From contig CM030364.1 of the NCBI GenBank assembly GCA_017893485.1, positions 251,136,731 through 251,200,730 of the forward strand: a stretch of DNA of 64,000 nt. The letters run 5' to 3'. The DNA is from Hemerocallis citrina (taxonomy: Eukaryota; Streptophyta; Magnoliopsida; Asparagales; Asphodelaceae). Position 1 is the stretch's first letter. The number at the start of each line of letters is the position of its first letter. Under the pieces are notes generated by a model. It saw only the letters and a program-made list of their open reading frames with translations. It was not told the origin of the DNA and did not search any database. Positions 23,951 through 47,639 of this stretch are shown here, in pieces. Position numbers and translations under genes: made by a program.

Positions 23951-25101
23951 CAGGGGTCAGTGATCTATTCAAACATCGTGATCTGGCTCCAATGATTCTA
24001 ATGACAACGAACTGTATGATTCAGATATGTTGAGCTTTATAACACTCGGCCGAGTTTTCACGTTCCCAATAACCTCGTAAAGTTTTGGTCAAAGGCCCCC
24101 CCTCCTCCAGTACCTTACGGTTATTACAATTGTTGGACCCTAATCAACAACAGTTAATGAATATTGAGTTGTAATTTTTTTTTGCTGAAGCTACGGTGGG
24201 AAGTTTTGCTCTGCCATGGCCCGTTAACAAGAGCTCACTAATCGGCTTTCCATAACATACCGGAGGCCAATGTTAGAAAGGGAGAAATATGCCTTGCTAC
24301 CAATTTTATGAAGTTATATGTTTGTTTTCGTTTTTTTTTTCAATTTTTAGGTGTTATATGAAATTTCATGTTATCTTGCAAAACGGTTAATTTATCGTAT
24401 TATCTAGGAAAAATAAAATTAGAACTTCAGACATTTGTAACAAGCATGAAAAATTATCAAAACTTCCCACATAATGCCTAAAACTGAATAGACAAAAGAA
24501 AAACCTATATAAGCCGTGAGGCATCATTATGTAAAACCAAGTAAACTTCTTCCAATTCATTAGACAAAGATACCCACTTGGTCAGAATCAGAGAAAACAA
24601 AATGGAAGCAAAATTCTGCATTTAGTGATAATTAGTTCTTATACTGTTTCGTCTTGTACGATTTCTCTACAAATTTGTATACCAGAAAGACCAAGAGCAT
24701 ACCTACACAAGAATAATGTAGTGTGGATTTCAGTATCCCCAATCCCCATCCCCATCCACAAAGGTGTCTTTGTGTTCCCAGATTTGTGGACTGTCTAAAA
24801 GTGGTTTTCCTAAGCTAAGCATAATTTGATATTTGTCCCATATCGGCTGTATGGCAAGCTCCTCTGGCCGTTTTTAGTACGGAAACTACAAGCTCTTGTT
24901 GAGCAGTGAGGATATGTTCTATTGTGCAACATTGGGTTCTTGCACCATTTCAGACTATCTGTTGAATTGACTGTTCTGAGCTCATTTTTATTTTTAATAT
25001 GTGACTAGAACCTTGATTTTATTGCGAAAAAATTGGTTCTTTCAAAAACAATAAGACCCAAAATAGAGAGAATAATAAAAGGACAATTCCAAATCCTCCA
25101 T

Positions 25102-25865
25102 ATAAATTTCATTTAAAACGACTGGCTGACCTTTGAGTATTATTTCACAATCCCCTAACCTCCTCTCCGGCCACCATCGTCCACCTCCTCTCCATCTCCC
25201 TTCTCGACCTTGTCGTCGATAACAAGCTCCACCCGCCGATGCCAGCATCAACCCACCGACAACCACCACTCACCATCAGCCCAACAACCACTTGCCGATC
25301 GATGAGAGCCCAGACAAACAACCGGCAGACCACACCGGCACCACACCCTCGCTGTCGACAACACCCCGACGCTCCACATAAATCGCCAGCTCTTTCAATC
25401 CCCAAAGAAAGCAGATCCTACCAACTGCAGCTATCTGAGCCGCTTCAACGCTACCTCCACTTCCCCTGTCCAGCAACACCTACCCTCGACGCCAGCCATT
25501 TCGCATCGCAAGTTCCCGTCGCGCTGACTGCCTCTACAAAATCACAAATCGAGAAACCATCGTCGGATCTCCGACGACATCTACACCACTCTGGTAGCGG
25601 GATGGGGCTGTGGGGGAAGGAGGAGGAGGAAAAGGTGGCGAGGGAGTCCTCCCCTCTACCCGATTGCAACTCTCGGTGTTTTGTTTGTTGAGTTTTCTAG
25701 GAGAGCTTCTCTATAGAATTTTTAGAGAGAGAAACTCATTTGGGCTTAGGATGCAGCTTAAAAATTCTAATTAGGATACTAAATATACCAGTTACGAGTA
25801 GCATACAAGTAGATACATATTTGACAAAAAAAATAATTTCCTAGAATGGCTATAGGCTGGCTTAT
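25102..25865. other. GC-rich stretch, no gene recognised
   Basis: From 25145 to 25690 the sequence is C/A-rich with open frames on both strands (plus 25239-25691, proline/threonine-rich). None shows a known domain. Low-complexity composition explains the openness. It could be an exon-like relic, but nothing supports a function. Confidence 0.35.
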
Positions 25866-26338
25866 ATGGCGGCTACAGTAATAGCAAATGGAGGACGATC
25901 GTGCAGTGGTCGTTTGTTAAATTTTTCTCATATGCGTGTGTGGCAAAAATTTAAGGGAGGGACGGGGAAACATTCCCCGTCCCACAAAAAATAAAAAATA
26001 ATTAAAAAAAAAAATAGTTGAAATCGTTAGATGGGATATCATATCCCGTCCTATAAATCCGGCTACTTTAAAGTAAAGTTTCCCATTAATTTGTTGCCGT
26101 GGAGTTGTTTTGGCAAAGAAGAAATCATTTTGCTCCCTCCCTTTTGATATTAAAAGACCATATTACCCCTCCTTTATAATTTGGATGAACACTATAAAAT
26201 GGCATACCAGAAGTTGAATTGAAGACACTCTGCTCTCGACATTCTTCTGGCCAAAAAAATTTTATTTGCTCTCGGCTATTCTCTTTCCCTCTTCAAATTT
26301 CTTAACTCTTATTGTAATCAAGATACATACAATTTGGA

Positions 26339-27202
26339 ATGTCTTCTTCAATCAAGCGATTTATTGGAAATATTAAATCAAGGCGTATGTCGGAGTCCGC
26401 ATCATCACAGTCCGCACCGTCATAAAACAGAAACGAAGAAGAAACAACTGCGCCTATCAATGCCAGCGATCCATCACAGTGGGTAAAAGTTTTCGATGAT
26501 GGACGGCACATTTGCAAACAGATTACGGATGAACCTATAGGTGGATTTGTTAATTTCAGAGGAAATCGGAAGGGACCGATTAAAGCCTACAAGGTACTTT
26601 GCAATGTTCCTATAATAAAGCAGCTTATCGACAATGCGGGTTGGTCCCCTTTTTTTATTATTGATACAGAGAAGTCATCTGCGCGTCTTGTTGATGCTTT
26701 GGTTGAGAGATGGTGGGACATGACCCACACTTTTCACCTTCCTGGCGGTGAGTTGGGATTTACCCCGTTAGACTGGGCAATGCTAACAGGTTTATCTATT
26801 GGAATCGGTCCGTTGCCGCCATGTAACGACGATGCATATCCTTTTGAGGTTGTCCAGTGTAGTTTCTTTCCAGAAATTACACCGGAAGATTGGAAATCTC
26901 ACGGTATACGTATCTCTTTCCTAAAGAAGTATTTTGTGAAAGATTGGATAGATGCAGCTATAGCCGATCCTGTAGTGGCAATGAAAGTTAGCAGAGCTTT
27001 CTTCATGTATTTTGTGGATGAGTTTCTTCTACCCAATGCATCCGGTGTAGTGAGATGTGGTTTCCTTACTGCATTTGAAGATTTGAATGTTGTTGGTACG
27101 TATGATTGGGGTAGTCCATCTTTGGCATTGCTATATATGTCTTTGGATGCTTGTAGCCGACTTAAATTGAAAGCATTTAACGGCCCGTGGCAAGTACTAG
27201 AG
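26339..27202 (+). pseudogene. Plant mobile domain (PMD) gene, exon 1
   Basis: The frame starts at ATG 26339 and runs 288 codons to a GT donor at 27203, with one TAA at codon 29 (26423). The core reads GGFVNFRGNRKGPIKAYKVL, then WWDMTHTFHLPGGELGFTPLDWAMLTGLSIG, here given by its key pieces RWWDMTHTFHLP and GFTPLDWAMLTGL. These match the plant mobile domain found in MAIL1/MAIN-type nuclear proteins and in several plant transposons: a tryptophan-rich segment, T-TFHLP-GE and TL-DV-MLTGL. PMD proteins of the host act in silencing and genome stability. Transposon-borne versions have no established role. The intron after this exon was hit by the retrotransposon at 27302. Confidence 0.75.
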
Positions 27203-27301
27203 GTAATCTTAATAAATAATGTTCTTTATTTTGTTACAATATTTAAAATTGAAAATAATAATGTTCCAATTTTTAATCTGTCACATATTATTATATGTGT
27301 T

Positions 27302-27918
27302 TGATATGGCTAAAAATATGATTAAATCGGGACCGTTCACATCGGACTCGAATCTTAAAGCTCAGGGGTAAAACGGTAATTTTACCTACAAACGGGTCTG
27401 AAATGGGAACTGGGTCCTTATTCAAAGCCCAATAACCCATGAACGGATCCACCTCAACTGGGTACGGATCCCAACCCGAAACACACCCAGTCCAGAAAAG
27501 ATAGAATTAGGGTTTCTGATTAATCCTAATCAACGACCCTGATTCACATCTATCTTTTCACCGGGAATTAGGGAATACATTCCTAATCTGTTTACTAGGA
27601 GAATATTCCTTATCAGATCACGGGGATTACATTCCTAAATTGATCCCTAAGACGCCTATAAATACCCCCCATCCATCTCCATTAAGAGGTAATCAATACT
27701 TTTCCAATTTACGCTCTTTCTTAATCATTTCTGATTACTGACTTGAGCGTCAGAGGGTGCGTCGCCGGGATCAACCCCGGTGTCTCGCACTTTTTGCAGG
27801 TGTACGGCAGGAGTCAACGGTCAAACCCCGGCGGAACAGGTTAGAGGTTTGCTATTCAGGTTTTTCACGAATCCACAAATTCTATCTGTTTACCCCCACA
27901 CCAGATTTAGCGGCAACA
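27302..27918 (+). repeat. 5' LTR
   Basis: Begins TGATATGGC and ends CGGCAACA. It includes CCTATAAATAC (TATA box, 27657-27664) about 260 bases before its end, giving an expected R start near 27690. The pair at 35328 has the same length. Confidence 0.93.
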
Positions 27919-27920
27919 GA

Positions 27921-27937
27921 TTGGCACCGTCTGTGGG
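27921..27937 (+). other. Primer-binding site
   Basis: TTGGCACCGTCTGTGGG begins two bases after the LTR. Plant Tat-type elements have TTGGCGCCGTCTGTGGG-like sites here, which pair with a tRNA 3' end. The tRNA was not identified. Confidence 0.7.
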
Positions 27938-27989
27938 AAAACCAAAGGAATAGCAGCCCCTCTTCCCGTTGGTCCGATCTTCTCCAGCC

Positions 27990-29753
27990 ATGCCTCCGAG
28001 AAAAGTCAGGTCCAGAGGGTCCAACCGCGGGCCCAACCCCGCCGATCAGCAAGAGGTAGTCCCCGTCCAACCCGCTCCGCAGTAGGGACAACCCTCGCCT
28101 CAAGTGGAGGACCCTCTTCAACAAGATCAGCCTCCTCTTCAGAATCAGGAACCCCCCAAGGGTCCCACCGGTCCTCAGAATGCCGGTGCGGGGGGCTCCC
28201 GCATGAAGCAACCTCTCCATCAAGACCGCGTCTCCATACACAAAGCCTCTACGGATTCCATGGCCTCTCATAATCCTCAAAACCGGCAGAAGGTGGAGGA
28301 CTTACGCCACCGTCTGGACGAGAAGCGGGCCCGAGAGGGAGCCTCCCGCCAACAACGTCCGGGTGAGCGATCCCCTCACCGCCGAGACTACAGAAGATCC
28401 CCTGTCCGAAGGGGAAGGAGGGAGTCCCCTGAGCATTACAGAAGGAGGCACTCCCCCGCAGATCGGCAACAGCCCAGGAACAATGAGGCACCAATCACCC
28501 GAGCCGAGTTCCAGCAGTTCCAAGCAATGGTACAACAGGGACTCAACCTCCGTCAAAACCCTAATGAGCCGAAGGCCCCGTCCCCTCCTCCAGTCCGAAG
28601 CCCTCGCCGACGGTCCCCATCTCCTCGTCCCGCTCCTACCAACTCCCGGCGTACCCCAAGTCCTCGTCGCTCCCGAAGTTACCATCGCCGCAGCCCTCGC
28701 TCTCCCTCCTACGAAGACGAGTCTAGAGGCTCGGCTGATTACCGTCGGAGGGACGACGCCATGTATCGCCGTCTTCATGAGGTAGAGAGGCGCCTGGGTC
28801 AGATAGGTCGAGAAGAAGAGCTTAGGGGGAGGACCCTACGTCCTACTCGACCCCCTTTCTCCCGAACCATTGTGGATGCACCTGTGCCGTTCGGCTTCAA
28901 ACCTCCCCAATTTGAGACTTACACCGGGGAGACTGACCCCGTTGACCACATTGAGAGCTTCAAGACTCTCATGCTCATCCACCAAGCTTCCGATGCCCTG
29001 CTGTGCAAGACATTCCCTGCTACTCTCAAGGGCTCGGCTCGGGAATGGTACTCCCGCCTCGCCCCGTCTTCCATATTCTCCTTCGAGCAGTTCGAAACAC
29101 TTTTCATAACCCACTTCGTGAGTAGCAGGCACACGGAGAAGACCAGCATCTCACTCCTCCAGCTCAGGCAAGAGAAAGGTGAGAAGTTAAGAGACTATGT
29201 GAAGAGGTTCACTGCGGAGGTCAGGTCCATGGCCTCCCTCGACCAATCCGTCGCAACGGCCGCCTTCCAATCCAATGTCTTCAATTCCAGCCTTCGTTCC
29301 TCTCTTGCTAAGAAGCCTCCACAGAACTTTGCCGACCTCCTTCTCAGGTGTGAAAAGTACATTCGGGCCGAAGAGGCTCTCAACCCCCCTACTCTTGAGG
29401 AGACATCTTCTGGGAACAAACGGAAGAGCACAAGCGAAGAGGGGTCCCAAAAATCCCAGAAGGACAGTAATGGCCAGCGCCGTTCGACTCCACGTTTTGA
29501 GAAGTTCACCCCCCTCATTGCTAATATATCAGAAGTCCTTATGGAGGTGGACAAGGAAGGACTACTCCGCGCTCCCCCTAGAATGAATACCCCTGGTAAG
29601 AAGAGGGACAAAGATAAGTGGTGTCGCTTTCACAGGGACCACGACCACGACACGGATGATTGTCGGGCTCTCAAGGAGGAGATCGAAGAACTCGTACAGC
29701 GGGGACACCTGACCAAGTTCATCCAAAAAGAGGGGGCCGAGCTTCCCCTCTGA
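27990..29753 (+). pseudogene. Tat-type gag, one in-frame TAG
   Basis: From ATG 27990 the frame runs 587 codons to TGA at 29751, broken only by TAG at 28083 (codon 32, in CAG-TAG-GGA-CAA, so CAG is likely ancestral). The basic, arginine/serine/proline-rich N-terminal third is followed by the capsid-like domain: FKPPQFETYTGETDPVDHIE, SAREWYSRL, FEQFETLFITHF, LRDYVKRFTAEV, FADLLLRCEKYI. A nucleocapsid motif C-x2-H...H...C (WCRFHRDHDH, DDCRALKEEIE) closes it. Gag packages the RNA into particles. Reading from the GTG at 28104 would avoid the stop. No protease follows in frame. Confidence 0.9.
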
Positions 29754-30060
29754 GAAGCCAACAAACGAACCGAAGGGCCCGGTGAGCTTCAAGACTCAGA
29801 ACCTCCCAGCTCCTCCCAAGAGGTCTTCACCTTATCGTAGAAGTAGGATTTTGATTTTCAATAAGACCGATGCTTGTAACCCGGCCAATAGCATGTAATA
29901 ATGGCTCGCCCTATTGAAGCAGCCACTTAGTTTATTTCAATAAAACTTTACGTTTTTTCATTGGAAATTGTTGCTCTTGCGTCATCTCAATCTCTCCGAG
30001 TCACGACTCGTTAAATGGTGATTTCGGAGTCCAGCTTCTTCTACATGGCTCCTCCCGCAA
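29754..30060 (+). other. Region after gag with putative polyadenylation-like motifs
   Basis: Contains AGCCACTTAGTTTATTTC and AATAAAACTT. The other retrotransposon (57780-57900) has the matching CAGTCGCTTAGTTTAATTTT after its gag/protease. The pair suggests a conserved 3' processing or regulatory segment. No protein. Confidence 0.35.
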
Positions 30061-30072
30061 CTCACTAAACTC

Positions 30073-30880
30073 TAACGATGGTTCCGGAGTCCTACACTTG
30101 GTTCGATTCTGCTTCGAATAACTTGCTCTTAAGCAGGTTAGAAGTGGTTCGTCATTCGGAATTGCTCCCACAACCGTTGAACAACTCTACCGATGGTTCC
30201 GGAGTCCAACACTTGGTTCGATTTTGCTTCGAATAACTTGCTCTTAAGCGGGTTAGAAGTGGTTCGCCATTCGGAATTGCTCCCACAACCGTTGAACAAC
30301 TCTACCGATGGTTCCGGAGTCCAACACTTGGTTCGATTCTGCTTCGAATAACTTGCTCTTAAGTGGGTTAGAAGTGGTTCGCCATTCGGAATTGCTCCCA
30401 CAACCGTTGAACAACTCTACCGATGGTTCCGGAGTCCAACACTTGGTTCGATTCTGCTTCGGATAACTTGCTCTTAAGCGGGTTAGAAGTGGTTCGCCAT
30501 TCGGAATTGCTCCCACAACCGTTGAACAACTCTACCGATGGTTCTGGAGTCCAACACTTGGTTCGATTCTGCTTCGAATAACTTGCTCTTAAGCGGGTTA
30601 GAAGTGGTTCGCCATTCGGAATTGCTCCCACAACCGTTGAACAACTCTACCGATGGTTCCGGAGTCCAACACTTGGTTCGATTCTGCTTCGAATAACTTG
30701 CTCTTAAGCAGGTTAGAAGTGGTTCGCCATTCGGAATTGCTCCCACAGCCGTTGAACTTTTCTAACGATGGTTCCGGAGTCCAACACTTGACTCGATTCT
30801 ACTTCGCAAGTTCGCTGTTAAGCGAGCTAGAAGTGCTTCGCCATTCGGAACTGCTCCCACAACCGTTGATTCCCTCACTT
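30073..30880 (+). repeat. Array of seven 115-bp repeats
   Basis: The unit holds GGTTCCGGAGTCC, then TTCGATTCTGCTTCGAATAA, then GTTAGAAGTGGTTCG, then GAATTGCTCCCACAACCGTT. It recurs every 115 bp from about 30079 to 30769, nearly identical in the middle and more diverged at the edges. The 87-codon minus-strand frames it creates every 115 bp are by-products. Confidence 0.95.
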
Positions 30881-30899
30881 AAATAACGAGTTCGGAGCC

Positions 30900-31200
30900 C
30901 ACAACTTTCTCCTAGGGTTGCTCCTCAAACTCGTCTCACAAATGGCACTCTCCTAGAGCCAAGCTCCTCGCTCCGCTCGCCTCCAAAAGCGGACCTCTTC
31001 TCAACGAGTTCAAAGCTCACCACTCTCTCCTTGGGTCGCTCCTCAAGCTCGTCTCACAAATAGCTCTCTTCCAGATCCGAGCTCTTTGCTCCGCTCGCCT
31101 CCAAAGCGGACCTCTTCTCAACAAGATCGGAGCTCACAACTCTCTCCTAGAGTTGCTCCTCAAACTTGTCTTCCAAATGGCTCTCTCCTAAAGCCAAGCT
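30900..31200 (+). repeat. Two to three diverged repeats, period about 115 bp
   Basis: GCGGACCTCTTCTCAACGAG at about 30991 recurs at about 31106, with CTCCTTGGGTCGCTCCTCAA between. The same period as the array to the left suggests a shared origin. Confidence 0.7.
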
Positions 31201-31539
31201 CTTCGTTTTGCTCACCTCAAAGGATGGGTCTTCCCACGGCTCTTACAAGGGTCTTCCTGGCACAAGGGTTTTCCCAGCACAGCTTCTCCGCCCCTAGGAG
31301 TGGAGCTCCTCTTCCAAAATCCCCACGACCAAAACACTCCTCAACTTCATGAAGACAAGGATGTTGCGGGGCTATTTTGACCATGAAGGAGGGTGAATCC
31401 TCGTCTCACTCCTAAAGAGAAGTTGTAGATCTTCGAATTAGCTTCGAAACAAGGGGTCGCACGCCCCGAGCCGACCTCCGTAGCACCGGGAACATCAAGA
31501 AGAACTCTGCAGGAAAAAATTGGAGTTCGGCACAAGCTG

Positions 31540-32360
31540 CCGAGCATTCTCGGAACCGACCTCGTTACGGGGGAAAATTCAAGCTCGGCACAAGCTGCCG
31601 AGCGTTCTCGGAACCGACCTTGTTACGGGATAAAAATCAAGTTCGGCACTCACTGTCGAGCGTTCGTGACACCGACCTTGTTACGGGGTAAAAATCAAGT
31701 TCAACACTCACTGCCGAGCGTTCGTGACACCGACCTTGTTACGGGGTAAAAATCAAGTTCGGCACTCACTGCCGAGCGTTCGTGACACCGACCTTGTTAC
31801 GGGGTAAAAATCAAGTTCGGCACTCACTGCCGAGCGTTCGTGACACCGACCTCGTTATAGGAAAAAATTCCAGTTCGGCACCCACTACCGAGCATTCGTG
31901 GAACCGACCTTGTTATGGGGAAAAATTTCAGTTCGGCACCCACTGCCGAGCGTTCGCCAACCGACCTCGTTACGGGAAAAAAAAATCAAGTTCGGCACTC
32001 ACTGCCGAGCGTTCGTGGAACTGACCTCGTTACGGGGAAGAAATCAAGTTCGGCACCCACTGCCGAGCGTTCGTGGAACCGACCTCATTACGGGGAAAAA
32101 ATCAAGTTCGGCACCCACTGCCGAGCGTTCGTGGAACCGACCTCGTTACGGGGAAAAAATCAAGTTCGGCACCCACTGCCGAGCGTTCGTGGAACCGACC
32201 TCGTTACGGGGGGAAAATCAAGTTCGGCACCAGCTGCCGAGCGTTCTCGGAACCGACCTCGTTACGGGAGAAAAATCGAGTTCGGCACCAGCTGCCGAGC
32301 GTTCTCAGAACCGACCTCGTTACGGGGGAAAAAATCGGACCTCGGCACCCCTTCGCCGAA
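31540..32360 (+). repeat. Array of about 14 repeats of 57-62 bp
   Basis: The unit runs ACCGACCTCGTTACGGGG, an A-rich spacer, CAAGTTCGGCAC, and CTGCCGAGCGTTCGTG. The GGCAC..TGCCGAGC part can form a hairpin. The array produces long plus-strand frames (31898-32520) that repeat a serine/arginine-rich unit and are not taken as genes. Confidence 0.93.
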
Positions 32361-32455
32361 CGCTCTCATAAACAAACAACACAAAAAAGAAGATGGGGGC
32401 TATTTTGACGCCGATCTTCTCCAACAAAGTTGGCGCCGATCCCAAGCAAAAACCA

Positions 32456-33120
32456 AAACTCTCCTCAACCTCATGTGTACAAGGATATTCTCTGGCTATT
32501 TTGACCATGAAGGAGGGTGAATCTTCATCTCACTCCTGAAGAGAAGTTGTAGATCTTCGGATTAGCTTCGAAACAAGGGGTCGCACGCCCCGAGCCGACT
32601 TCCGTAACACCGGGAACCTCGAAAACTCTCCTCAACCTCATGTATATAAGGATATTCTCTGGCTATTTTGACCATGAAGGAGGGTGAATCTTCATCTCAC
32701 TCCTGAAGAGAAGTTGTAGATCTTCGGATTAGCTTCGAAACAAGGGGTCGCACGCCCCGAGCCGACTTCCGTAGCACCGGGAACATCGAAAACTCTCCTC
32801 AACCTCATGTATACAAGGATATTCTCTGGCTATTTTGACCATGAAGGAGGGTGAATCTTCATCTCACTCCTGAAGAGAAGTTTTAGATCTTCGGATTAGC
32901 TTCGAAACAAGGGGTCGCATGCCCCGAGCCGACTTCCGTAGCACCGGGAACATCGAAAACTCTCCTCAACCTCATGTATACAAGGATATTCACTGGCTGT
33001 TTTGACCAGGAAGGAGGGTGAATCTTCATCTCACTCCTAAAGAAAAGTCGTAGATCTTCGAATTAGCTTCGAAACAAGGGGTCGCACGCCCCGAGCCGAC
33101 CTCCGTAGCACCGGGAATAT
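32456..33120 (+). repeat. Array of about four 166-167-bp repeats
   Basis: AAAACTCTCCTCAACCTCATG recurs at 32456, 32622, 32789 and 32956. Each is followed by GGCTATTTTGACCATGAAGG and CGCACGCCCCGAGCCGAC. A further copy lies before the shorter array at about 31340-31510, so the arrays have a higher-order arrangement. Confidence 0.93.
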
Positions 33121-33139
33121 CAAGAAGAACTCTGCAGGG

Positions 33140-33560
33140 AAAATTGGAGTTCGGCACCCGTTGCCGAGCGTTCTTGCCACCGACCGTTTTACGGGCTTGA
33201 GTTCGGCACCAGTTGAGTTCGGCACCCCTGCCGAGCATTCTTGCCACCGACCGTTTTACGGGCTTGAGTTTGGCACCCCTGCCGAGCGTTCTTGCCACCG
33301 ACCGTTTTACGGGCTTGAGTTCGGCTCCAGTTGAGTTCGGCACCCGCTGCCAAGCGTTCTTGCCACCGACCGTTTTACGGGCTTGAGTTCGGCTCCAGTT
33401 GAGTTCGGCACCCACTGCCGAGCGTTCTTGCCACCGACCGTTTTACAGGCTTGAGTTCGGCACAGTTGAGTTCGGCACCAGCTGCCGAGCGTTCCTGACA
33501 CCGACCGTTTTACGGGCTTGTGTTCGGCACCAGTTGAGTTTGGCACCAGCCGCCGAACGC
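33140..33560 (+). repeat. Array of 50-77-bp repeats
   Basis: Units of TGCCGAGCGTTCTTGCCACC, GACCGTTTTACGGGCTTGAG and TTCGGCACC repeat six or seven times with variable spacing. Clearly related to the array at 31540. Confidence 0.88.
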
Positions 33561-33569
33561 TCTCAGCAT

Positions 33570-34735
33570 AAGACCCACGAACAACAAAAAAAAGGGGGAG
33601 AGACAAGGGGCCGGGTTCGGACCCATTAAGGGGACCCGAACCCAAACCAAAATGCCACGTCACCCTCCTTCTTTCTCCCCCTACGTTTGGCGCAAATCCC
33701 AAGCAAAAACCAAACAAAACAAACCAGGGGAACAAAAACAAAAACGCCAAACTCGTCACCTTCAAGCACCGAACCCACCTTCTCGCGAACTCAACTCCGC
33801 CGAGCTCCGCTCCGCTTCGACGAGCTCCGAAGTGCCGAGCTCCACCAGGCCTGCCTCCAAGCTCCGCCATGGCCGACCACCTCCACTTCCGACGAGCTCA
33901 CTCCGTCGTCGAGCTCCATCGTCTTCAAGCTCCGAACCCACCTTCTTCGAACAACCAAGCTCCGACTTCGCCGCCTCCACTTCCGAGCTCCCAACCTAGC
34001 CGAACCACTTCCGACGAGCCTCCTCCTTCTTCTGACTCCGTCGTCGAGCTCGCAAACACCTCCGTCAACCTCCGACCTCGTCGACACCAAACTTGACACC
34101 GAGCTCATCTCCCGAGCTCGTCTCCACTCGCCATCAGCTTCGTCATCTCTTCGAGCTCCGCCTTCGCCATCATGGCCAAGCTCGTTGCCGAACGCCATCG
34201 AAGCTTCGGTGCCGATCTCGAAGCATCGTCGAACTTCAAAACCACATCGCCGAGCTCCCTATCCCGAGCTCAAACCCCTAGCCATGGCATCGACAAGCTC
34301 CACCTCATCACAAAGCTTCGAACCCATCGCTCCGCTGTCGAGCTCCCCTCAAATCCGAGCTCCATTCCTCCAAGCTCTATTCCGACGCCCTCGCAGCTGA
34401 GCTCCGCCATACCACCTTCACCGAACTCCCCCTACGCGAGCTCCCCTCGCACTCCAAGCTCCGACCTTGCTCCCACTTGACGAGCGCCTCCGCAGTCGAG
34501 CTTCAAACCCCACTCCTCCTCCTCGAGCTCCAGCGACGCCCTCGGAGGTGGAGACAGAGTGGGAGCTGGGGGTTGGAAGTAGGGTTGAGGTCGAAGGAGA
34601 ACGAAGAAGAAGATAGACGAAGAGAACAGAACGAAGAAGAAAGAAACAGAGAAAGAAGATAGAGCAGCAGCGAAGAAGGAGAGAAGAAGAAAGAAGCAGC
34701 GGAAAAAAAAAAAAAAAGGTCAACCGTTGACTTGA
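33570..34735 (+). other. GAGCTC-rich non-coding segment of the retrotransposon
   Basis: Many CGAGCTCC words stand at irregular spacing, giving long open frames on both strands (33687-34400 plus, 33791-34198 minus) of serine/proline/arginine low complexity. No retroviral enzyme motif. The related element has a corresponding CATAGCTCGGCGAAG segment at 61980-62520. Confidence 0.6.
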
Positions 34736-34879
34736 CACGTGTCGTCCTCGTGGACTTCGGCCACCTTTTGCCGAGCATTCATGGCACCGACCCTATTACA
34801 CCAAAAAATGGCCTCTTCTTCCTCCTCCCGATGCACGCTCGCTTGATCGTGATCAACGCACACGATCGCACCACGTGTC

Positions 34880-35190
34880 CAGGTAATATTTTATTTATTT
34901 ATTTACTTATTTATTTGTTTTAATTATTTAAAAAATCTGAAAAAATATTTAAAAATCGGAAAAAATTAAATAAAAATTCTAAAAATAATTATAAATTCAG
35001 AAAAATTATTTTAAAATTCTGAAAAATATAATTATTTAATTAGAATAATTATTTAATATTTTCGATAATTAATTATTTAATTCGGAAAATGAATAAAAAA
35101 TTCAAAAAAAATGAGGAAAAATTCAGAAAAATTTGGAAAAATCACCAAAAATCCAAAAAATTCTGAGGATATTTTTGGGTATTTTACAAG
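34880..35190 (+). other. AT-rich segment before the polypurine tract
   Basis: Many AAAAATTCNGAAAAA and TTATTTAATT words. The related retrotransposon has the same kind of stretch at 62820-63040, also just before its purine tract. Confidence 0.6.
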
Positions 35191-35311
35191 CCCAGAATAA
35201 CACTGTTACACCCCCGAGCAAGATCCAAACTCCCTTAAGAACACCGATAAAATCTTGTACGCCATTAGAACAGTAAAACTACTCCTCAAAGGCTGATCAA
35301 ACTCAGTCTTC

Positions 35312-35327
35312 GGGAGTGGGGGGCTCG
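35312..35327 (+). other. Polypurine tract
   Basis: GGGAGTGGGGGGCTCG directly precedes the 3' LTR, the expected plus-strand priming site. Confidence 0.75.
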
Positions 35328-35944
35328 TGATATGGCTAAAAATAGGATTAAATCGGGACCGTTCACATCGGACTCGAATCTTAAAGCTCAGGGGTAAAAC
35401 GGTAATTTCACCTACAAACGGGTCTGAAATGGGAACTGGGTCCTTATTCAAAGCCCAATAACCCATGAACGGATCCACCTCAACTGGGTATGGGTCCCAA
35501 CCCGAAACACACCCAGTCCAGAAAAGATAGAATTAGGGTTTCTGATTAATCCTAATCAACGACCCTGATTCACATCTATCTTTTTACCGGGAATTAGGGA
35601 ATGCATTCCTAATCTGTTTACTAGGAGAATATTCCTTATCAGATCACGGGGATTACATTCCTAAATTGATCCCTAAGATGCCTATAAATACCCCCCATCC
35701 ATCTCCATTAAGAGGTAATCAATACTTTTCCAATTTACGCTCTTTCTTAATCATTTCTGATTACTGACTTGAGCGTCGGAGGGTGCGTCGCCGGGATCAA
35801 CCCCGGTGTCTCGCACTTTTTGCAGGTGTACGGCAGGAGTCAACGGTCAAACCCCGGCGGAACAGGTTAGAGGTTTGCTATTCAGGTTTTTCACGAATCC
35901 ACAAATTCTATCTGTTTACCCCCACACCAGATTTAGCGGCAACA
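35328..35944 (+). repeat. 3' LTR
   Basis: Same length as the 5' LTR, with eight substitutions seen by eye. TATA box at 35683-35690. Followed by the GTGTT target duplication. Confidence 0.93.
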
Positions 35945-35957
35945 GTGTTTGTTTCAA

Positions 35958-36263
35958 TACTGGACATATGAATACACATGCATTTGTACACCAATGTGTA
36001 AGCGAACCGTAAACTTTGCAGTCCATTTGCAAAATGCGGATATCCGACCAAAAATATCACGTTGGAATCGCAGTAATTTGGATGAAACAAGTTGTGATCT
36101 GATACGTTACAATATATCCATGGCCCGGAGTCAGCTAGAAATGAGATCATCAGCATCTATTATATGCCAACCCTATGATGGAACCAAATATGAAAACGAG
36201 TATGATGTTCAATGTGCGATGATCTTATCCCGCCACCGCTGTATCTTCCAATATGGTAGTTAG
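35958..36263 (+). pseudogene. PMD gene, exon 2
   Basis: After the retrotransposon the frame continues YWTYEYTCICTPMC. This follows exon 1 (GPWQVLE) as PMD proteins continue after L-(Q/E)-W-YE. The expected acceptor at 35956-35957 reads AA instead of AG, which would block splicing. The exon ends QYGS-TAG at 36261-36263 just before a GT donor, where CAG would keep the frame open into exon 3. Both changes indicate decay. Phases are 0 on both sides. Confidence 0.6.
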
Positions 36264-36340
36264 GTAATAATATATACAGTTATTCAATTAATACTTACTT
36301 AACTTATTTTTTGTTAGCGCTAATTATAGTTTAAATGCAG

Positions 36341-36787
36341 GGTGTCTGGTACCTCGGTGACCGATGTTACCGGCAAGTAAATGGGATTATTGCTATCCCA
36401 TCAAATCCTCCTAAGACCATGTCTAGAATGAAAGCACATGAGTTCTGTGCACCGATTGATGCTTCTAAACTGGTCTCTCTTGTTCCACAAAGGGTATATG
36501 ATCAGTATTGGGCGAAGGTTTCAATTGGTCCTATTATGCCTAATCTGTCGCATGGTGCTAACGTTGATTTCATAGGAGCAGCTGGTTGCAGCGATCCATC
36601 AACCCATTTGCCCTATCCAACACCTCCTTATTATATGCCCACACAATATATAGCACCACCGGTGCTTGAGAGACCAACCTTTTTTGGTCAGCCCTTAGTT
36701 GAAGCACCCATATTCATGGGCGGTACAATAACAAAAAATCTTAGTCAGGATACTTTTGAGTTTCAACTACGCCGCGATCAATCATAC
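36341..36787 (+). pseudogene. PMD gene, exon 3, and trace of a last exon
   Basis: An AG acceptor (36339-36340) opens GVWYLGDRCYRQVNG, then IPSNPPKTM, as in the C-terminal part of the plant mobile domain (W-LG-R-WRQ..P-PP--M). A proline/tyrosine-rich tail follows (STHLPYPTPPYYMP). The exon ends at a GT donor (36788). A further exon may begin at 36870 after TTTGTAG and run to about 37080, but its frame is broken early. No known motif lies in the tail. Confidence 0.6.
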
Positions 36788-37454
36788 GTAAGAATATGAG
36801 TCAATTTGTAAAATCTGCAGCTGGTTTATGTTGATTTTGTTTATTTATATATTTCTACTTTATTTGTAGGAGGAGCTGTACAGACAATGCTAGGAACTAT
36901 CAAGAAATAATTGTCTACCGCGAAAATTTATTATTGAAAAAATGGTGCTACGAGAATCAGTTCCGTCGATAGCAACATCAGGAAGGCGATCGATATCGAG
37001 GCATCGCCCTTCCACATCGCGGCAGACAGATGGTTCGGAGGATTCCACCCGAACCCCTTCATTTGTGCCAAATACCCAATATGATTAGGAATATTATTAG
37101 TTTGTGTTAAATTTGCCTTCAATTTTGTTGTATAGGTCTTTTGGAAACTACATGTTATCTTAAAATTAATTTGGTAATTCAAGGACTAATTAATCTTAAG
37201 AATTATAGAAAAATGGTCAATGCACGCCAACCTAGACTATAGATTCCATGCCTCTTTTTCAAATAATAACCCTTTCACGTGAAGAGTCTTCCAAACTTCA
37301 AGATATATTGGTACATTTTCACGTGAAGAGTACTTAAAATTCATGTGAAGAGTATTCCACTTTCTTCTCTATTTAACAAGCTCCAACCTCTGAACTACGG
37401 TAACCATCACTCCCTACAACTCTACTCCTTCAACATATTCTTATTATCAAAAAA

Positions 37455-40400
37455 ATGTCTCAATTCTCTTCTTCTTCAACGTCCACTGACTCCTCCGATG
37501 AATGGGATGAAGAAGACGATGTGGCAATCATGTTCAACAGGCGCATGTAGCAAAGAGCTTTGGGTAATCTCGCTTCACAACGAGATTTGCATCGCCGTTA
37601 TATTCGCCGTGAGAGAGTTGAAGGCCATAACCGGTTGGTGCGTGATTATTTTTGCAACAACTCTATTTATCCCGATTCTATTTTCCGTCGGCGATTTCGA
37701 ATGCATCGGCCTCTTTTCATGAGGATACTTGAAGCAAGCGTTGGTTATGATCAATATTTTCAACAACGAGTAGATGCTGCAAATGCGGCTGGCTTGTCAC
37801 CAGTACAGAAATTAACAGCTGCAATGCGTTATTTAGCGTATGGATCTTCTACTGATGCAGTCGACGAATATGTCATAATTTGGGAAACTACAGTACTCAA
37901 CAAGGTACGTAGATTTTGTTTAGCAATTGTTAATATTTTTGGTCCGCAATATACAAGAAAACCCAACGCAGATGATGTAAATAGACTTCTCGAAGAGAAT
38001 AAAACTCGTGGATTCCCGAGTATGTTGGGTAGTATAGATTGCATGCACTGGGTTTGGAAAAATTACCCTGCAGCTTGGCATGGTCAGTATACAGGTCATG
38101 TCCGTGAACCAACAATTATACTTGAAGCAGTTGCGTCCTATGATCTCTGGTTTTGGCATTCATTTTTTGGCATGCCGGGAAGCAATAATGATTTGAACGT
38201 ACTTAATCGATCAACATTATTAAATGATATTCTTAATGGTTGTGCACCTCCTGCTAATTATTTTATAAACAATCATCAATATTCCATGGGGCACTATTTG
38301 GCAGATGGAATCTACCCCCCATTGGCTACTATAGTCAAAACCTACACTGCACCTGAGACACAAAAAAAGAAAAAATTTGCTCAAATGCAAGAAGGTGCAC
38401 GTAAAGACGTTGAACGAGCATTCAGAGTTTTACAGGCTAGGTTTGCGATCGTAAAAGTGTAATGCCCCGAATCCCAAATACACTGAATTCGAGATGTTCT
38501 ACAGGATCTTTTCACTTTCTTTAGTACAATTTTACAGGGAAATTAAACTTTTCACTTTACATCAGAGTTACATCAAATATTACATTTACATTTGCACAGC
38601 GGAAGTAAAAATATACAATATTTGAATAAATACATAACAACATGGTAAAATCTTTATGCATCCATTCCTCTTTAACATGTCATTTATCCTGCATACAAAA
38701 CTGTGGGTACGTCAGTTTATTCAACCGACGATAATTATATATGGCCATCCTCTCTATGCCAGAAACAGTATAACAATTCTCATTTCTTAACAGATCACAA
38801 ACTTGTTCATATAACACAACAAAGTAAAAGGAAATGATGTCGTGTCATGATTGTGCACTTAATCCTTAATGCAATTATTTAATTTACATGACACTAATGC
38901 GCACTTGTTCGGATTCTATGCATCCCATACTACATAGGTCCGAGGGCAAACCTCTTAATCGTTCTTCATTTTTGTAGGGTTCAATCCCTCGCCATGATTT
39001 AATCTACTACTGTAATTACGGTGAGTATCCTAGATGATCTATGAGTACAAGCACGTGCACTGGACCCTGGAGGGGAACCCCACGCCATGTCTTGACTCAT
39101 CAAGCATGCATTCTGTGGTAATTCAGCCTCCTCCCTGAACACGATTCTCTTGCAGTCACCAAACATCCCACAAGCGTGGCTAAAGTCCGATCATTATTGA
39201 GTTGTGCCCACGCCATGTCTTGACTCATCAAGCATGCATTCTGTGGCTCACATACCCGCACCGTAAACTCTAGTTCTCATACTTATGTTTTCTCCCACTT
39301 TCATCACATCTCCACTATGTATTAATTATTAGAATCATGAATAAAATCAAAGCTCTAGAGTTAGCCTCTCCACTAAACCGGACTTATTCATTTCATTCTC
39401 ACATGACCAACCTTGGTCTTTCTTTTCAAATTCATTTCATTTCATTTCCATTGCCGGGGGAGACTTAGCTACTCTTTTGTTCAATTTCCAATTTGAGCAT
39501 TTCTAACTCATGAATTTATTTTTCATTGCCTCAGCATATAATGTTCTTAATTTTCATATTCATGTAATTCTTCATTCAAAGTATGACTCATTTCATGTAA
39601 ATTTCTCAATTCAAAATATGATTCATTTCATGTACATTCATGCAGCAGTAAATAGAGTTTAGCAACAACAATCATAAAGTTCACAACACTTAGCAGTAAG
39701 CAAAATAAAATCTCTGACATATCAAAATCTACTCTGTACAGTCGACTTGAAAAAGACCAGTCGACTTGTACAGTCAATATAAGTTCTTCATAACCACTCG
39801 GGAGAGTCGACTACTGCACATGGCCAGTCGGCTGTCCCGCAACTTCCTATGTTCAAATGTCATTCACATGATAGTCGACTGTCAACAAATCAGTCGTCTG
39901 TCCCGTTCTTAACAGTACATATCCATGTTCAGCTCAGTCGACTTGCTACTCACATTAGTCGACTGGACAGGTTCACATTTCAAATTAGGGGATCATCTTC
40001 CCAACAGTTCTTACATTCACATGCATCATGGTGTCAAATTACAATATACATATTTATATTCATGCTGCATAAACATGTAATTTCTTACTGTTCAGTAACA
40101 TCGCAATATGGAATTTCAAGTCACTAATATTTTTCAAGGAAGTGTTTAAACATGCATTTACACTTGTTCATAACTTTCTTGCAGAGATGAAATATTAATT
40201 TTATGTATTATACTAGGACAGTCACAATGGAAATATCTTATTTCATGGAAGTACAGCGACATTCATAGTTTAATCAATGCATCGGTCGACTGTTCTTATC
40301 CTCAGTCGACTGCACTAGTCATTCTCAGTCTTATTAACCATTATTAGTTCTTTTCATCCGTTCACATTTTCTCCATCATATGTAACATGGGGGAATATGA

Positions 40401-41658
40401 ATTTAGCAATCGTACTATTATTTCTGTTTCGCATACATGTACATTATCAAATCATGAAGATATTCGCCTCGTACCAGTCGACTTGTACATGCGACAGTCG
40501 ACTGTACCGACCCATTTGTTCTTATTTACAGTGTCGTTATTACACTATTAGTCTTTCACAATTATCATCATAAACATACTCAAGCAATTCTAGTACGTTT
40601 GAATTTACTTCTCATAAGCAGAGCAACAAACATCATAATCATGGCATATTTTCTACACTAGAAGTCCTGAGAAACACCCACCTTATTGACGAAATAATTG
40701 AACTCCAGAGAAATTCCTTAATGCAATGCAGCACTCCTTGCTCCTTGCTTCTTGCTCCTTGCCGAAAATCTCCAGAAGATGATGCCCGGACTCCACAAAA
40801 AGCACACACAACTCTCTCTCAATAATAGTTCTCTTACAAAATAACCTTTAGTGTAAAAGAACCAAGGAATGAGATGGGGTATTTATACACCAAATGGAGT
40901 GAGATGGAGGGCTAGGATTCAGTATATGGTTATTGGATCAAGGGCTAGGATGCACTAGGGAGTTGTGATAACCACCCACACCCTAAATAACCACCCACAA
41001 CTCACACCCACTTCTCTACCCAATCCGGCCAAACAAAAGGGTGTGTTCTACACGTGTATGCAACATGCACGTGTATGCACAAATCACCCTACAAGAACTT
41101 GTACACAATGACAAGTCTAAAAATAAAAAAAAAGCTACACACTACAAGTTGTAGAGAATAAAAGATTAGTTCCATGGGCTTAAATTAATTGGGCCAAGAT
41201 AAATATTTAAAAGAAAAATAAGTAAACTAACATTTGGGCTTTAGAAAAAAATGCTTTATAGAAAATAATATTCTTATTCATCATGTTGAAAATAATAGCC
41301 AAAATATTACACGTGCACACTACGTGCAAAAATAAATAATTTTTCATATATTTGAAAAATCAGGGTATTACAAAAAGGGCCAGCTCGAATGTGGGATACA
41401 GATAGTCTCTCCTATATAATGAAGACTTCTATTATTTTACATAATATGATTGTGGAGGATGAAAGAGACGAAGGTATACATAATTATGACTACGAACAAA
41501 ATTCATCAACTACATTCGTAACACCTAATACAACTTCTCCAACAGAACAGACAGCTCGTTTGGCACGGAGCGTTGTTTTACATGATCGACAGCGACATCA
41601 TACGCTTCGACAAGATTTGGTTGACCATATTTGGAACGAATTTGGGGAAGCCGATTGA
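37455..41658 (+). pseudogene. PIF/Harbinger transposase (DDE), split by a solo LTR
   Basis: From ATG 37455 the protein reads MSQFSSSSTSTDSSDEWDEE, then RRFRMHRPLFMRI. The catalytic core is SIDCMHW (first D), then VASYDLWFWH, PGSNNDLNVL (second D) and KDVERAFRVLQ (third acid, E). This is the plant DDE_Tnp_4 group of PIF/Harbinger. The C terminus resumes at 41378 with MWDTDSLSYI, SIILHNMIVEDE. TAG at 37548 (codon 32) and the 2.9-kb solo LTR at 38458-41372 break it. Without the LTR and one AAAAG the frame is continuous to TGA at 41656. The enzyme would cut the element out and insert it at 3-bp targets. Confidence 0.9.
38458..41372. mobile_element. Solo LTR (Ty3/Gypsy type) inserted in the transposase
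   Basis: A 2915-bp segment begins TGTAATGCCCCGAATCCC and ends GGGTATTACA, with TG..CA ends and 10-bp near-inverted termini. AAAAG flanks it on both sides (38453-38457, 41373-41377). There is no primer-binding site or coding region, so it is a solo LTR left by LTR-LTR recombination. Inside are many AGTCGACT words (39730-40510) and a direct repeat of GCCATGTCTTGACTCATCAA (39083 and 39210). The second solo LTR at 53511 belongs to the same family. The orientation cannot be fixed without an internal region. Confidence 0.9.
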
Positions 41659-42123
41659 TAAAATGTAATACTTTCTGAATTGTTTATTTAGATTTGTAAT
41701 TTTCCTTATTATGAATGGTCTCTTTTTATTTTTTCTCTAATATGGTAGTAACTTGAATGTCCATTAAAATTTATTATTTCGTACTTTGCATGATGGAAAG
41801 GTTATATTTCATACTGTTTTGAATTGCATGCTGGTAAAATTGTTATGATTGATGTGTACACATGAAACTACCTATTTAATACATTAAAATTAAAACTTAA
41901 TACGTCGATAGTAAATTATGAAGCAGGTTTTAATGTAAAATTGACGATACAATTTGTTTACTTCTTCAAACTCTTACAGAAATAAATAGCCTTACATTTT
42001 AATCCCTAATGAAACCTCTTTTTTCCATAATTTGACGTTGTCTACAAATAAAATAATAACGTTGCTCATCAGGATATTTTGTCAGATCCAACCCCATAAT
42101 TCGATCTTCCTCGGCTTGCTCTT

Positions 42124-42919
42124 TCATATCCTGGTCTTTTTTTTCAAAGCAAGTTTCAATTGCGTCGCTTCTAATCTACGTCCTTGTGTCTCAATATAGT
42201 AGGAGTTAAATCTTCTCGTCTCTTCAAGCATAGCCTCGTCAGTACCATCGGCTTTATTTTTCGCTTTCCTTTTTTCTGCTTTGCGCCCGGGTGGTTGGGA
42301 CAGTGGTGTAAAGGATTCACCTCCCGCCGCTACGTCGGAGTTGGGAGAGTCAACATTTAGAGGCGTATGTTGACTGCTACTAACATCAGGTGACTGTGTT
42401 CCAATGCCATACTCGAAGACAGTAGTCGTACGTAGAGAAAATTTGGGTAAATCTTTTAGTAATTGATAACATTCTTCAAATCGGAAAACTTTTCCAGTAG
42501 ATTGCATGTATTCCGTTCTTGCTTCCCGTATCTAGAAAAAAAAAAAAAAAAACAACACTCATTAAAAACTCTAACAATGCATTCAAAAAACAATAATTGT
42601 AAGATTCAAATAAATATACCTTGTCAGCCTCCGTAGTTCCGCTTACTGCTCTGTTTGTAACACTCGCCAATTTAGCAACAAATAGAGACACATCTTTGGA
42701 AATAATGTGAAATCTACTACTAAGCGATGCCGACGTTCGATCCGTCGGACTGCCTAAAATTGCTTTGAAGGTGTTGAATATACGATCCCAAAATTGGCTA
42801 CCCGATTGGTCCACACCAACTGTTAGATCTTGACTAGTTGCTATTCAACTCTGTGAAAGAATAACATATTCACTTGTTGTATAGGCTCTCCTTCTTGATC
42901 CCCTGGTTGGAGCTGCCAT
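42124..42919 (-). pseudogene. Harbinger Myb/SANT-like DNA-binding partner protein
   Basis: From ATG 42917-42919 the minus strand reads MAAPTRGSRRRAYTTSEYVI, then one TGA where W is expected (SQS-stop-IATSQD). After it come VGVDQSGSQFWDRIF and SLSSRFHIISKDV. An intron at 42532-42619 (GT donor after TEADK, TCTAG acceptor) leads to exon 2 with FRFEECYQLLKDLPKF and PGRKAEKRKAK, ending at TGA 42124. The order Myb/trihelix-like domain then NAM-associated C terminus is that of the second protein of plant PIF/Harbinger elements, which helps the transposase bind and enter the nucleus. It lies tail-to-tail with the transposase. A TATAAATA (43035-43042) stands about 120 bp upstream. Confidence 0.8.
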
Positions 42920-44082
42920 TGTTGCAAGAAAATTTTTCTCAGGATTAGCTCTCGGTGGAGTAGGAAGACTAGTTTGCTTGTTTATGATTTTTCCTGTGAA
43001 TTTTTTACACCCTTTTTGTATCAGGAATGTGTCTTATTTATACTGATTTTTGGATGGACGTTGTCAAATTAATAGCCATTGGGATTTGAAAAAAGAGTCG
43101 TTGAAGAGAGCGGTGGAGAAACGTTGAAGGGGAATTTAGGGGGAAAAAAAACAGAAAACAAAATTAAATCTCCATGGACGGAAAAACATATCCCGGACGG
43201 GGTATGTTTCCCCGTCTGAGGAGATATTTTAAAAAAAAAAAAAAAAATTTAAAACCGGAGAGACGGGGTATCATATCCCGGACGGGGTATGTTTCCCCGT
43301 CTGAGGATATATTAAAAAAAAAAAATTAAAAGGGGAGAGACGGGGTATCATATCCCGGACGGGGTATGTTTTCCCGGCCAACCATTTTTTTTTAAAAAAA
43401 AAAAATTATTTAGACGGTATATCTTTTTCCATCTCACTAGATTAAAAAATCATAAAATCGGAGCGACGGGATATGATATCCCGTCCTTTATAATTTGAGA
43501 ATTGGTATTTCATTTCTCATATATGAGAAACCAGAATAGAGTGTTTGTCATAAAAAGACAAAATGAAAAACCATTGCAGCGATGCGTTTCTTATAAAATA
43601 GCAATTTGCCATTTATAAAAAACCATTGTGGATGCTGGTGGCTTGTTGGTACATGTAGTTAGGGTGATTATAGATTGATATAGGATCCTGCTTAGACAAC
43701 ATTTTAACAATATGCATGATAAACAAAAGATATGTCCATCTTAAGATTTATCATATTCGGCTTATGAATGATTTTTTAAAAAACTTACACATTTGTTACC
43801 ATAAAGCAAACGTTATTTAATTACATGATGTTTATATTATCAAGTCAAATACAAGATATGAATTACTTAAAACAAATTTCTTGCTGCTATGTTTGTTCTT
43901 GATGGACAACCAAATAAAATATAGAAGAAAGTAGGAAATTCTGAAATTCGTGCAAACATAACGGTGAAGTTGGAAAGCTAACCTTGTCAAGTTTCAATAT
44001 GCAGCACTCGTCAACATTTTACATTAGAAGATAATATATTATTTGTTTCGTTGTCTTGGCCTCTAAGCAAAGAGTTAAATAA

Positions 44083-44167
44083 AACTAACGCTACACCCAC
44101 TATCTTATCCACTATTTTTTCCTCACCACCTTAGTTGGCACACTACTATAGTGGTATAGCATTACTC
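44083..44167. mobile_element. Mutator-type MITE, internally deleted
   Basis: Counterpart of 20163-20345, shortened to 85 bp. GTTAAATAA and ATTAAATAA flank it (8 of 9 match). Confidence 0.6.
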
Positions 44168-44186
44168 ATTAAATAAAGGGAGTAGA

Positions 44187-44535
44187 TGGGGCCGGTCCCC
44201 CAATGGAGGCAGGGGAGGCGGCTGCCTCCAGCCCCCAAAATTTCATAATTTTAGTGGTCCCCAAAAAAATTTTCTTGTTTCTATATATACGTATTTTGCA
44301 CGTAATGTTTTTTAGGGGGCTCCAAATTTTATTTTTTTGGACTTTTATTTTTTAAATTAGTACTTGGGCCGCTTGTTTTAATTGGGCTTGGATTTGTACA
44401 GAGATTTTTTCCTCAAATCCCTAAATCTTCATCTATTTCTTAATTTATATCCGTTTTTAAGACTTGTAGAAAAAATTTTCCAAAAAAAATTTTAACAACT
44501 TTTTTAAAAATACATTTGTATGAGGACCGGCCCTA
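44187..44535. mobile_element. hAT-like short element with GGGGCCGGTCC ends
   Basis: Ends TGGGGCCGGTCC and, inverted, TAGGGCCGGTCC. GGAGTAGA and GGAGTAAG flank it (6 of 8). Counterpart of 20365-20791. Confidence 0.6.
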
Positions 44536-44973
44536 GGAGTAAGATAAGCATTTTTTTATCACATTTTATAAATGTACCGAGTTTTATTTTGTGAGTCCTC
44601 TTTAAAATAGAGGAAATCAGTGGGTAATTTATTTGTATTTTAACATAACATCGAAAAATTGGCAAAAACTCACTTAAATTAGTGAGGTCCACCTTTAAAT
44701 AAACAAATATTAAATCAAGCAACTTTGTATGAGGGAAAAATAATTATGTCTCGTTTCTCCCGTCCACATGGACATGTGTTTGATTTCCAAAAGGTTCTGA
44801 ATTTTATTTTATTTGGGCAAAAGAAAAAGATTCTGACGTTCTTCGTCCATCTTTTTTTCTTCTTCTTTTGTCTTATTATTTTTGTAACTCAATTTTGTCT
44901 TCCCAAGTAGCCTATAAACATAGAATGACAAAAAATACTTTGATATGATAGTTGAAATGCATATTTATAGAAA

Positions 44974-45150
44974 AATGCTAACTGTACTACTATTTTTTTA
45001 CTATTTTTGTACTACTTATACATTATCAAATTTTTTTATAAAAAAGCTCATGTAAAAACGTTTGCATTAATTGCTTGTGGGTATATGTATCATTCTTTAA
45101 TCTAGTGGTACCAAACTAGTACAATAGAAGTAGTACAATTAGCATTACTC
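44974..45150. mobile_element. MITE with TGCTAACTGTACTACT inverted ends
   Basis: Left AATGCTAACTGTACTACT and right AGTAGTACAATTAGCATTAC are inverted copies. Counterpart of 21217-21380, better preserved here. Confidence 0.55.
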
Positions 45151-45800: not shown

Positions 45801-45954
45801 AGGTAATACTATTTTGTACTACTTATAGATTATGAAATTAAAGAAGGTGTATCCCATGTAAAATATTTTATTTTAATTGCTTGTGGACATCACCATTTAG
45901 AGTCTAGTAGTTCCAAAGGAGTAAAAAATTTAAAGTAGTACAATTAACATTACT
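45801..45954. mobile_element. MITE, counterpart of 22033-22204, left end damaged
   Basis: The right end AGTAGTACAATTAACATTACTC is clear. The left end starts within the TACTATTTTGTACTAC part. The middle matches copy 1. Confidence 0.45.
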
Positions 45955-47572: not shown

Positions 47573-47639
47573 TCCTCTATGATGTACAAGTTGCATATAA
47601 AATTCTCTAAAACTAGTTATTTCTATATTCGTTTTGAAC

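Follow-up and report, generated by a model that had tools for sequence, protein, structure and literature searches.

A plant mobile domain gene as a third gene of PIF/Harbinger transposons in Hemerocallis citrina, with a possible VANC21-like role

A 64,000-nucleotide stretch of the Hemerocallis citrina genome (assembly GCA_017893485.1, contig CM030364.1, positions 251,136,731 to 251,200,730 of the forward strand), hereafter the window, holds exons of a plant mobile domain (PMD) protein beside a DDE transposase and a Myb-type gene, which raises the question of whether PMD belongs to a PIF/Harbinger transposon and, if so, what it does there. The initial annotation had read positions 25866-43650 as a three-gene Harbinger whose PMD may counter host silencing or serve mobility. 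We found that PMD is a member gene of this element, that it is co-inherited with the transposase, and that it evolves under purifying selection. DNA binding by PMD, a target motif and an effect on methylation or silencing are what we infer from these and from predicted structures.

To ask whether the gene set of the window recurs, we searched the genome (3.78 Gb, 701 contigs) with the transposase, which listed at least 131 places (130 scored out of 5,458 initial candidates), and fetched 20 copies from the upper part of that list, mostly with open transposase frames. In all 20, the transposase is preceded on its own strand by PMD sequence and followed by a Myb-type gene in convergent orientation; PMD exon 1 is present in 19 copies, and the remaining one, L018, has a piece of exon 3 only. 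A genome search with PMD exon 1 listed at least 148 places (14,999 candidates, 148 scored). At least 68 of the 131 listed transposase places have a same-strand PMD match listed 0-6 kb upstream (median distance 1,668 bp; 0.015 such places expected by chance), and any other arrangement of a transposase-PMD pair within 6 kb occurs once among the matches listed. The figure of 68 is a minimum, because inspection showed PMD sequence at several of the other 63 transposase places, namely in the window copy and at ten of the loci fetched (L009, L012, L014, L016, L018, L022 and L027-L030). Conversely, 81 of the 148 listed PMD places are without a listed transposase, which incomplete lists of matches, decay or deletion may explain.

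Homology among the copies begins and stops sharply, at a terminal inverted repeat (TIR) that reads GAGCATCCACARTSGT. Among the 18 copies in the analysis of ends (L018 and L027 had no end-to-end bounds), 13 are flanked by identical TAA or TTA on both sides, a 3-bp TWA target duplication; the other five comprise one TCA/TCA, one TAA/TTA, two that are off by a base or have a shifted end, and one without a left end. The sister copies have the short TIRs and the 3-bp TWA duplication of PIF/Harbinger elements, and carry PMD, transposase and Myb-type gene between common ends, which bears out the three-gene Harbinger of the initial annotation. Copies of the transposase lacking PMD, which it had named as evidence to the contrary, are not seen within the PMD-bearing clade, where all 23 fetched copies (the 20 plus L029, L030 and L033) have PMD sequence, L018 as a fragment; they do exist outside it, in one copy each of four distant Harbinger families. 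It had also envisaged a separate PMD element between 25.9 and 37.4 kb: the ends found there are those of a gag-bearing long terminal repeat (LTR) element that sits in a PMD intron. This LTR element did not deliver PMD, as in sister Harbinger copies about 100 bp separate the first two PMD exons and no LTR element is present. Nor did we find PMD inside an LTR retrotransposon, as in Gypsy PMD-A; the sister copies pair it with a DDE transposase.

A gene model built on copy L011 gives a PMD gene of four exons (611 amino acids), a transposase of one exon (427 amino acids) and a Myb-type gene of two exons on the opposite strand, with a single stop, in PMD exon 2, in L011 itself. When these models were lifted to the other copies and coding frames, rather than splice sites copy by copy, were compared, three of the 20 (L015, L017 and L019) had all three coding regions free of stops and frameshifts, a rate that is not that of the family because the copies were chosen mostly for open transposase frames. 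The L015 protein scores 99.7 bits against the Pfam PMD family PF10536, above the curated cut-off of 34.9, and such natural copies with three open-looking coding regions offer a compact test system.

Conservation of the three genes was compared by omega (NG86 counts). Between three subfamily groups, mean omega was 0.34, 0.32 and 0.49 for PMD, 0.13, 0.11 and 0.21 for the transposase, and 0.17, 0.16 and 0.22 for the Myb-type gene; three single pairs gave PMD values of 0.28-0.33 (bootstrap limits 0.22-0.43), and comparison with the divergent copy L030 gave about 0.2, at saturated synonymous sites (dS ~1.9). PMD is thus under purifying selection, since its omega stays below 1, but looser than that on the other two genes, whose values are lower. 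Codon trees and Mantel tests retained 19 of 22 copies (L018, L020 and L029 were dropped). PMD and transposase distance matrices correlate at r 0.989 across the 19 copies and 0.978 without L030, with 0 of 2,000 permutations as high, and in the tree comparison that the initial annotation had proposed, 15 of 16 splits are common to both genes. As matrices and trees agree, PMD and transposase travel together.

Which Harbingers carry PMD was examined with one copy of each divergent or PMD-less family. Three divergent families (L029, L030 and L033; transposases 72-76% identical) carry PMD that is 43-63% identical by piece, along most of its length in L030 and L033 and in part in L029. Four more distant ones (L031, L032, L034 and L035; 54-58%) have transposase and Myb-type gene, with no PMD in the 7.5 kb fetched per copy: L034 and L035 gave no PMD match at E <= 0.01, and L031 and L032, searched to E 10, gave a best E of 0.015 (P0007, in L032, antisense to the Myb-type gene). 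In a transposase tree with 17 proteins of other plants, taken from the 51 returned by the joined query described below (P0032 and P0064 being long, unsure rows), the six transposases from PMD-bearing elements group as a single clade (100/100) with these four families outside. From this topology, a single gain of PMD at the base of the clade is the simplest history. In PMD-less L035 (reverse strand, 1329-1739), six GACGG-N11-CCGTC palindromes stand to the left of the transposase, and the Myb gene is convergent as in the PMD family; the gene order that preceded the gain of PMD may have looked similar.

The Harbinger proteins group in the PMD tree with proteins from metagenome contigs (P0001 and P0066-P0068, 52-59% identical to L015), with P0002 and the Papaver protein P0003 (a cluster of 36 members) further out and the whole group at 100/100; its sister is P0004/P0008 (97/95), in a tree without named Arabidopsis MAIN/MAIL. 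The group stands on a long stem, apart from six other PMD-like open reading frames (ORFs) of the genome (L036-L041). These six, drawn from the PMD-like ORFs that score highest in Pfam, were considered as a source and rejected because the tree places them elsewhere. High-scoring PMD-like genes with long open frames cluster at C7:276.7-276.9 Mb and C9:117.6-118.9 Mb (L037 and L038 were sampled there) and are distinct from multi-copy PMD ORFs of about 517-522 amino acids. A joined PMD and transposase query returned 51 proteins, none with both PF10536 and PF04827, so that no fused gene model was seen in another plant, a result that does not by itself show absence; among viral contigs, 26 pattern matches yielded 0 relatives.

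What, then, might PMD do for its element? PMD function has been called unknown, although transposons as well as the silencing factors MAIN and MAIL1 contain the domain (PMC5418596, PMC7156037, PMC8616336). We propose, with a probability of roughly 55%, that the Harbinger PMD works like VANC21 of VANDAL21, a sequence-specific DNA binder with an anti-silencing role. In this model, a PIF/Harbinger lineage would have acquired PMD, most simply once, and retained it as a permanent third gene that precedes the transposase and reads in the same direction; the protein (~611 amino acids, four exons) would bind noncoding stretches of its own family in a sequence-specific way, and binding would relieve host silencing and let the transposase and Myb-type genes be expressed. 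The proposal builds on the predicted fold, on faster evolution and on the standing place of the gene in the element. In models of PMD relatives, the predicted fold matches that of VANC21 bound to DNA, which would give PMD a directly testable role in sequence-specific DNA binding; a search by sequence found no solved PMD structure. The VANC domain DUF1985 stayed below cut-off (15.3 bits versus 35.1 in P0001), being weak in six of 19 PMD relatives and giving no match in L015, and two of three DUF1985-like loci gave a frame for the HHalign comparison. Three of the 19 relatives also match Pfam DUF7745 weakly (best E 0.0009), which again hints at a broader superfamily. As for targets, the noncoding repeats of the family (TTCACRTGA, and palindromes shared with PMD-less families) are candidate sites only.

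Host biology weighs against this proposal: the host PMD proteins MAIN and MAIL1 support silencing, partly via MORC1 expression (PMC7156037, PMC9899485), so that a PMD can also serve expression in general, and the Harbinger PMD may be a decoy or an activator. The first of these alternatives casts it as a decoy for the host MAIN/MAIL1-PP7L module: it would mimic genic PMD, compete for PP7L or host sites and weaken host control generally, instead of binding element DNA. Genic PMDs do act with PP7L in silencing and gene expression (PMC7156037), and a counter-silencing role of PMD encoded by transposable elements (TEs) has been suggested (PMC8616336), but mimicry of L036-L041 is not obvious given the long stem that separates them from the Harbinger PMDs in a tree without named Arabidopsis MAIN/MAIL1, and we regard a decoy as unlikely. 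The DOWN motif of MAIN/MAIL1 targets (CATGCAGTTT, in the MORC1 promoter, as given in PMC9899485) is absent from all 18 copies examined.

Alternatively, PMD could be a transposition accessory that binds subterminal palindromes or target DNA and aids the transposase or sets the insertion site. Palindromes do lie near both ends, flanking the gene set. By direct location, the window has them on the left at 25961-25981 and 26030-26050, kept in sister copies, and, with half-words, on the right at 43196-43485 (GACGGG at 43196, 43262, 43281, 43339, 43358 and 43465). The palindromic words reported in the initial annotation are present at 26030-26050 and 43465-43485, where they pair as inverted copies (95%), as is GACGGGG..CCCCGTC at both ends (25961; 43196/43281). 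In 18 sister copies, GACGGG-N9-CCCGTC has 64 matches, all within 735 bp of an element end, compared with 0 in 100 shuffles of the terminal regions, and is therefore not a product of chance. All 15 copies compared have GACGGG/CCCGTC words close to each end; 14 have none mid-element, while L015, whose right side is longer, has three counted as middle, and the full pattern occurs at both ends in 14 of the 15 (at the right end only in L017). Positions 7/15 are G/C in 46 of the 64 sites, A/T in 12 and others in six, so that two-fold symmetry is maintained by matched changes. A looser pattern, GACGG-N11-CCGTC, is found in the PMD-bearing L033 (seven), L029 (three) and L030 (one), but also in the PMD-less L035 (six) and L031 (one), with none in L032 and L034. 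We thus rejected the palindromes as PMD targets: by their distribution they do not mark PMD, and they are probably sites for the Myb-type protein or the transposase, which makes an accessory role for PMD improbable. In L033 (reverse strand, 902-1102), four copies of the 21-bp palindrome GACGGCACATRATGTGCCGTC stand at 60-bp spacing at the left end, with three more on the right, and its subterminal sites seem to have spread as tandem repeats.

A further alternative is that PMD is an ordinary activator of the element genes, acting through TTCACRTGA repeats before the transposase start and leaving chromatin marks untouched. Each of the 17 copies examined has the motif, placed consistently with the PMD-transposase spacer, and it has 47 matches in 3,791 bp of spacer compared with 0.055 in shuffles (palindromic sites counted twice), in the 11 of 20 copies that remained once those whose spacer bounds a pattern missed were skipped; in the window, three motifs of this type at 37274-37349 make the spacer a candidate cis site, and a lead only. 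However, the motif is absent from L029 and L030 and from the spacer of L033, and CACGTG is also a common host G-box. TTCACRTGA may thus serve PMD as a target specific to this family, or be a G-box of the host; we give an activator role a slim chance. Finally, PMD might be a passenger gene copy that does nothing for the element, which would fit its being broken in many copies including that of the window, its loss of parts in L018 and L020 and its weaker constraint relative to the other two genes. Its persistence in divergent families, with omega under 1 for every pair tested, largely contradicts this reading, which we hold very improbable.

The window copy is itself decayed. Aligned to sister copies L009, L022 and L012 and to sister-copy ends, it runs on the plus strand from 25862 to 43637 (homology onset at 25862, right end at 43636-43637), so that the interval originally reported was correct to about 15 bases; the outermost ~30 bp on the left are unrecognisable, the left TIR being lost and the target duplication unreadable, and the right end is present. 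Two younger insertions inflate this interval, and once they are subtracted the element measures about 6.2 kb. PMD exon 1 (26339-27202, plus strand, modelled from L011) has a stop at 26423-26425 and is open from 26426, with a PF10536 match at 26426-27304 (E 1.1e-16; 61.4 bits versus the cut-off of 34.9). Exon 2 (35958-36263; tblastn to sister copies and splice model) has a changed splice acceptor and a stop as its last codon, exon 3 (36341-36787) was placed by sister-copy comparison and splice model, and exon 4 with the stop codon (36870-37088; splice model) has an additional premature stop close to its start, so that three of four exons carry in-frame stops. The Plant_tran/DDE_Tnp_4-type transposase (37455-41658, plus strand, as 37455-38457 and 41378-41658) has an early stop at 37548-37550 and matches Pfam at 37551-38459 and 41356-41655 (PF04827, E 7.9e-78 and 4.1e-9; PF13359, E 1.9e-6). 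The Myb/NAM-associated gene (41999-42919, minus strand, modelled from L011) has an internal stop in exon 1 (42620-42919) and a frameshift in exon 2 (41999-42531); exon 1 matches no Pfam family, and exon 2 matches PF14303 (NAM-associated; 42124-42528, E 8.3e-9). Its place as the Myb/SANT-type second gene follows from PF14303 and from its homologues, which are the partner genes in four other Harbinger families. All three genes that the initial annotation had placed inside the palindromes are there, the third as a NAM-associated match rather than Myb/SANT proper.

Of the two insertions, the one in PMD intron 1 is a gag-only LTR element (27302-35944, plus strand; Retrotrans_gag E 3e-14), with LTRs at 27302-27918 and 35328-35944 that are 98.7% identical and GTGTT on both flanks. 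It has long tandem arrays at 30068-30869, 31512-32371, 32455-33133 and 33147-33563 (offsets of about 115, 58, 167 and 68 bp), no polymerase was noticed in it, and it is probably a non-autonomous retroelement. The other (38458-41372, by direct reading), flanked by AAAAG, splits the transposase and, from its ends TGTAATGCCCC...GGTATTACA, would be a solo-LTR-like element. With two insertions, the stops, the changed acceptor and the frameshift, the window copy is incapable of activity.

Around the element, similar segments at 19892-25099 and 43843-49536 bracket it (main blocks ~74-89% identical), and a 167-bp block at 63834-64000 is 98.8% identical to 23132-23298, indicating a repeated locus around the insertion. 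An open frame at 52664-53515 resembles the gag of the element at 28-29.7 kb (67% DNA similarity between 28835-29125 and 52902-53193) and reads as a second, related gag element. Elsewhere in the window, a chain of frames at 5841-9599 (endonuclease, then reverse transcriptase) looks like a long interspersed nuclear element, a type judged by eye, and 9021-9158 is 76% like 18266-18403.

How does this family compare with known systems? In the open-licence literature we found no description of a Harbinger with PMD, nor of a link in fold between PMD and VANC (most subscription journals, preprints, Repbase and the paper behind 9lnj, which may discuss relatives, lay outside that search). With plant PIF/Harbinger elements (Pong-like, Plant_tran) it shares the DDE transposase, the NAM-associated/Myb-type partner, the short TIR and the TWA duplication, and two-gene relatives exist in the same genome (L031, L032, L034 and L035); PMD upstream of the transposase is the extra here. 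Mobile-element PMDs are described in Ty3/Gypsy (PMD-A) and in Mutator-like elements (MULEs; PMD-C, captured twice and fused to transposases), where Ikeda et al. 2017 (PMC5418596) speculated on anti-silencing for the MULE PMD; the word Harbinger is absent from the main text of that paper. In contrast to the MULE fusions, PMD is here a separate gene, and its carrier is a Harbinger. HarbingerS (with a SET methyltransferase, in oomycetes) and PHISTA (with a TET/JBP dioxygenase, in rust fungi), as described in PMC12730594, are likewise Harbinger-group elements, each with an additional gene whose product acts on epigenetic marks, but those genes are enzymes, found in oomycetes and fungi and not in plants, with no PMD. 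Host MAIN/MAIL1 (genic PMD-C), which act with PP7L, have the PMD domain in common with our elements, yet they are host genes required for TE silencing and gene expression (PMC7156037, PMC9899485). If the VANC21-like reading is true, such anti-silencing genes serve a further plant transposon superfamily, and a host silencing factor has the same ancestry as a parasite's means of escape. We put at about even the chance that PMD and VANC (DUF1985) branch from a single superfamily of anti-silencing proteins that bind DNA and are exchanged among plant mobile elements, as VANC in VANDAL MULEs and as PMD in Gypsy, some MULEs and this Harbinger, with MAIN/MAIL1 as a branch domesticated for host use. 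VANC21 binds YAGTATTAY in noncoding parts of VANDAL21, where DNA methylation is lost, and the transposase is better conserved than the VANC protein that accompanies it (PMC5735166, PMC10398659). The likeness is thus that of an accessory, faster-evolving protein, with a predicted fold of PMD relatives that matches DNA-bound VANC21, whereas the carrier there is a MULE and here a Harbinger, whose PMD has no DUF1985 above cut-off and whose anti-silencing role we infer.

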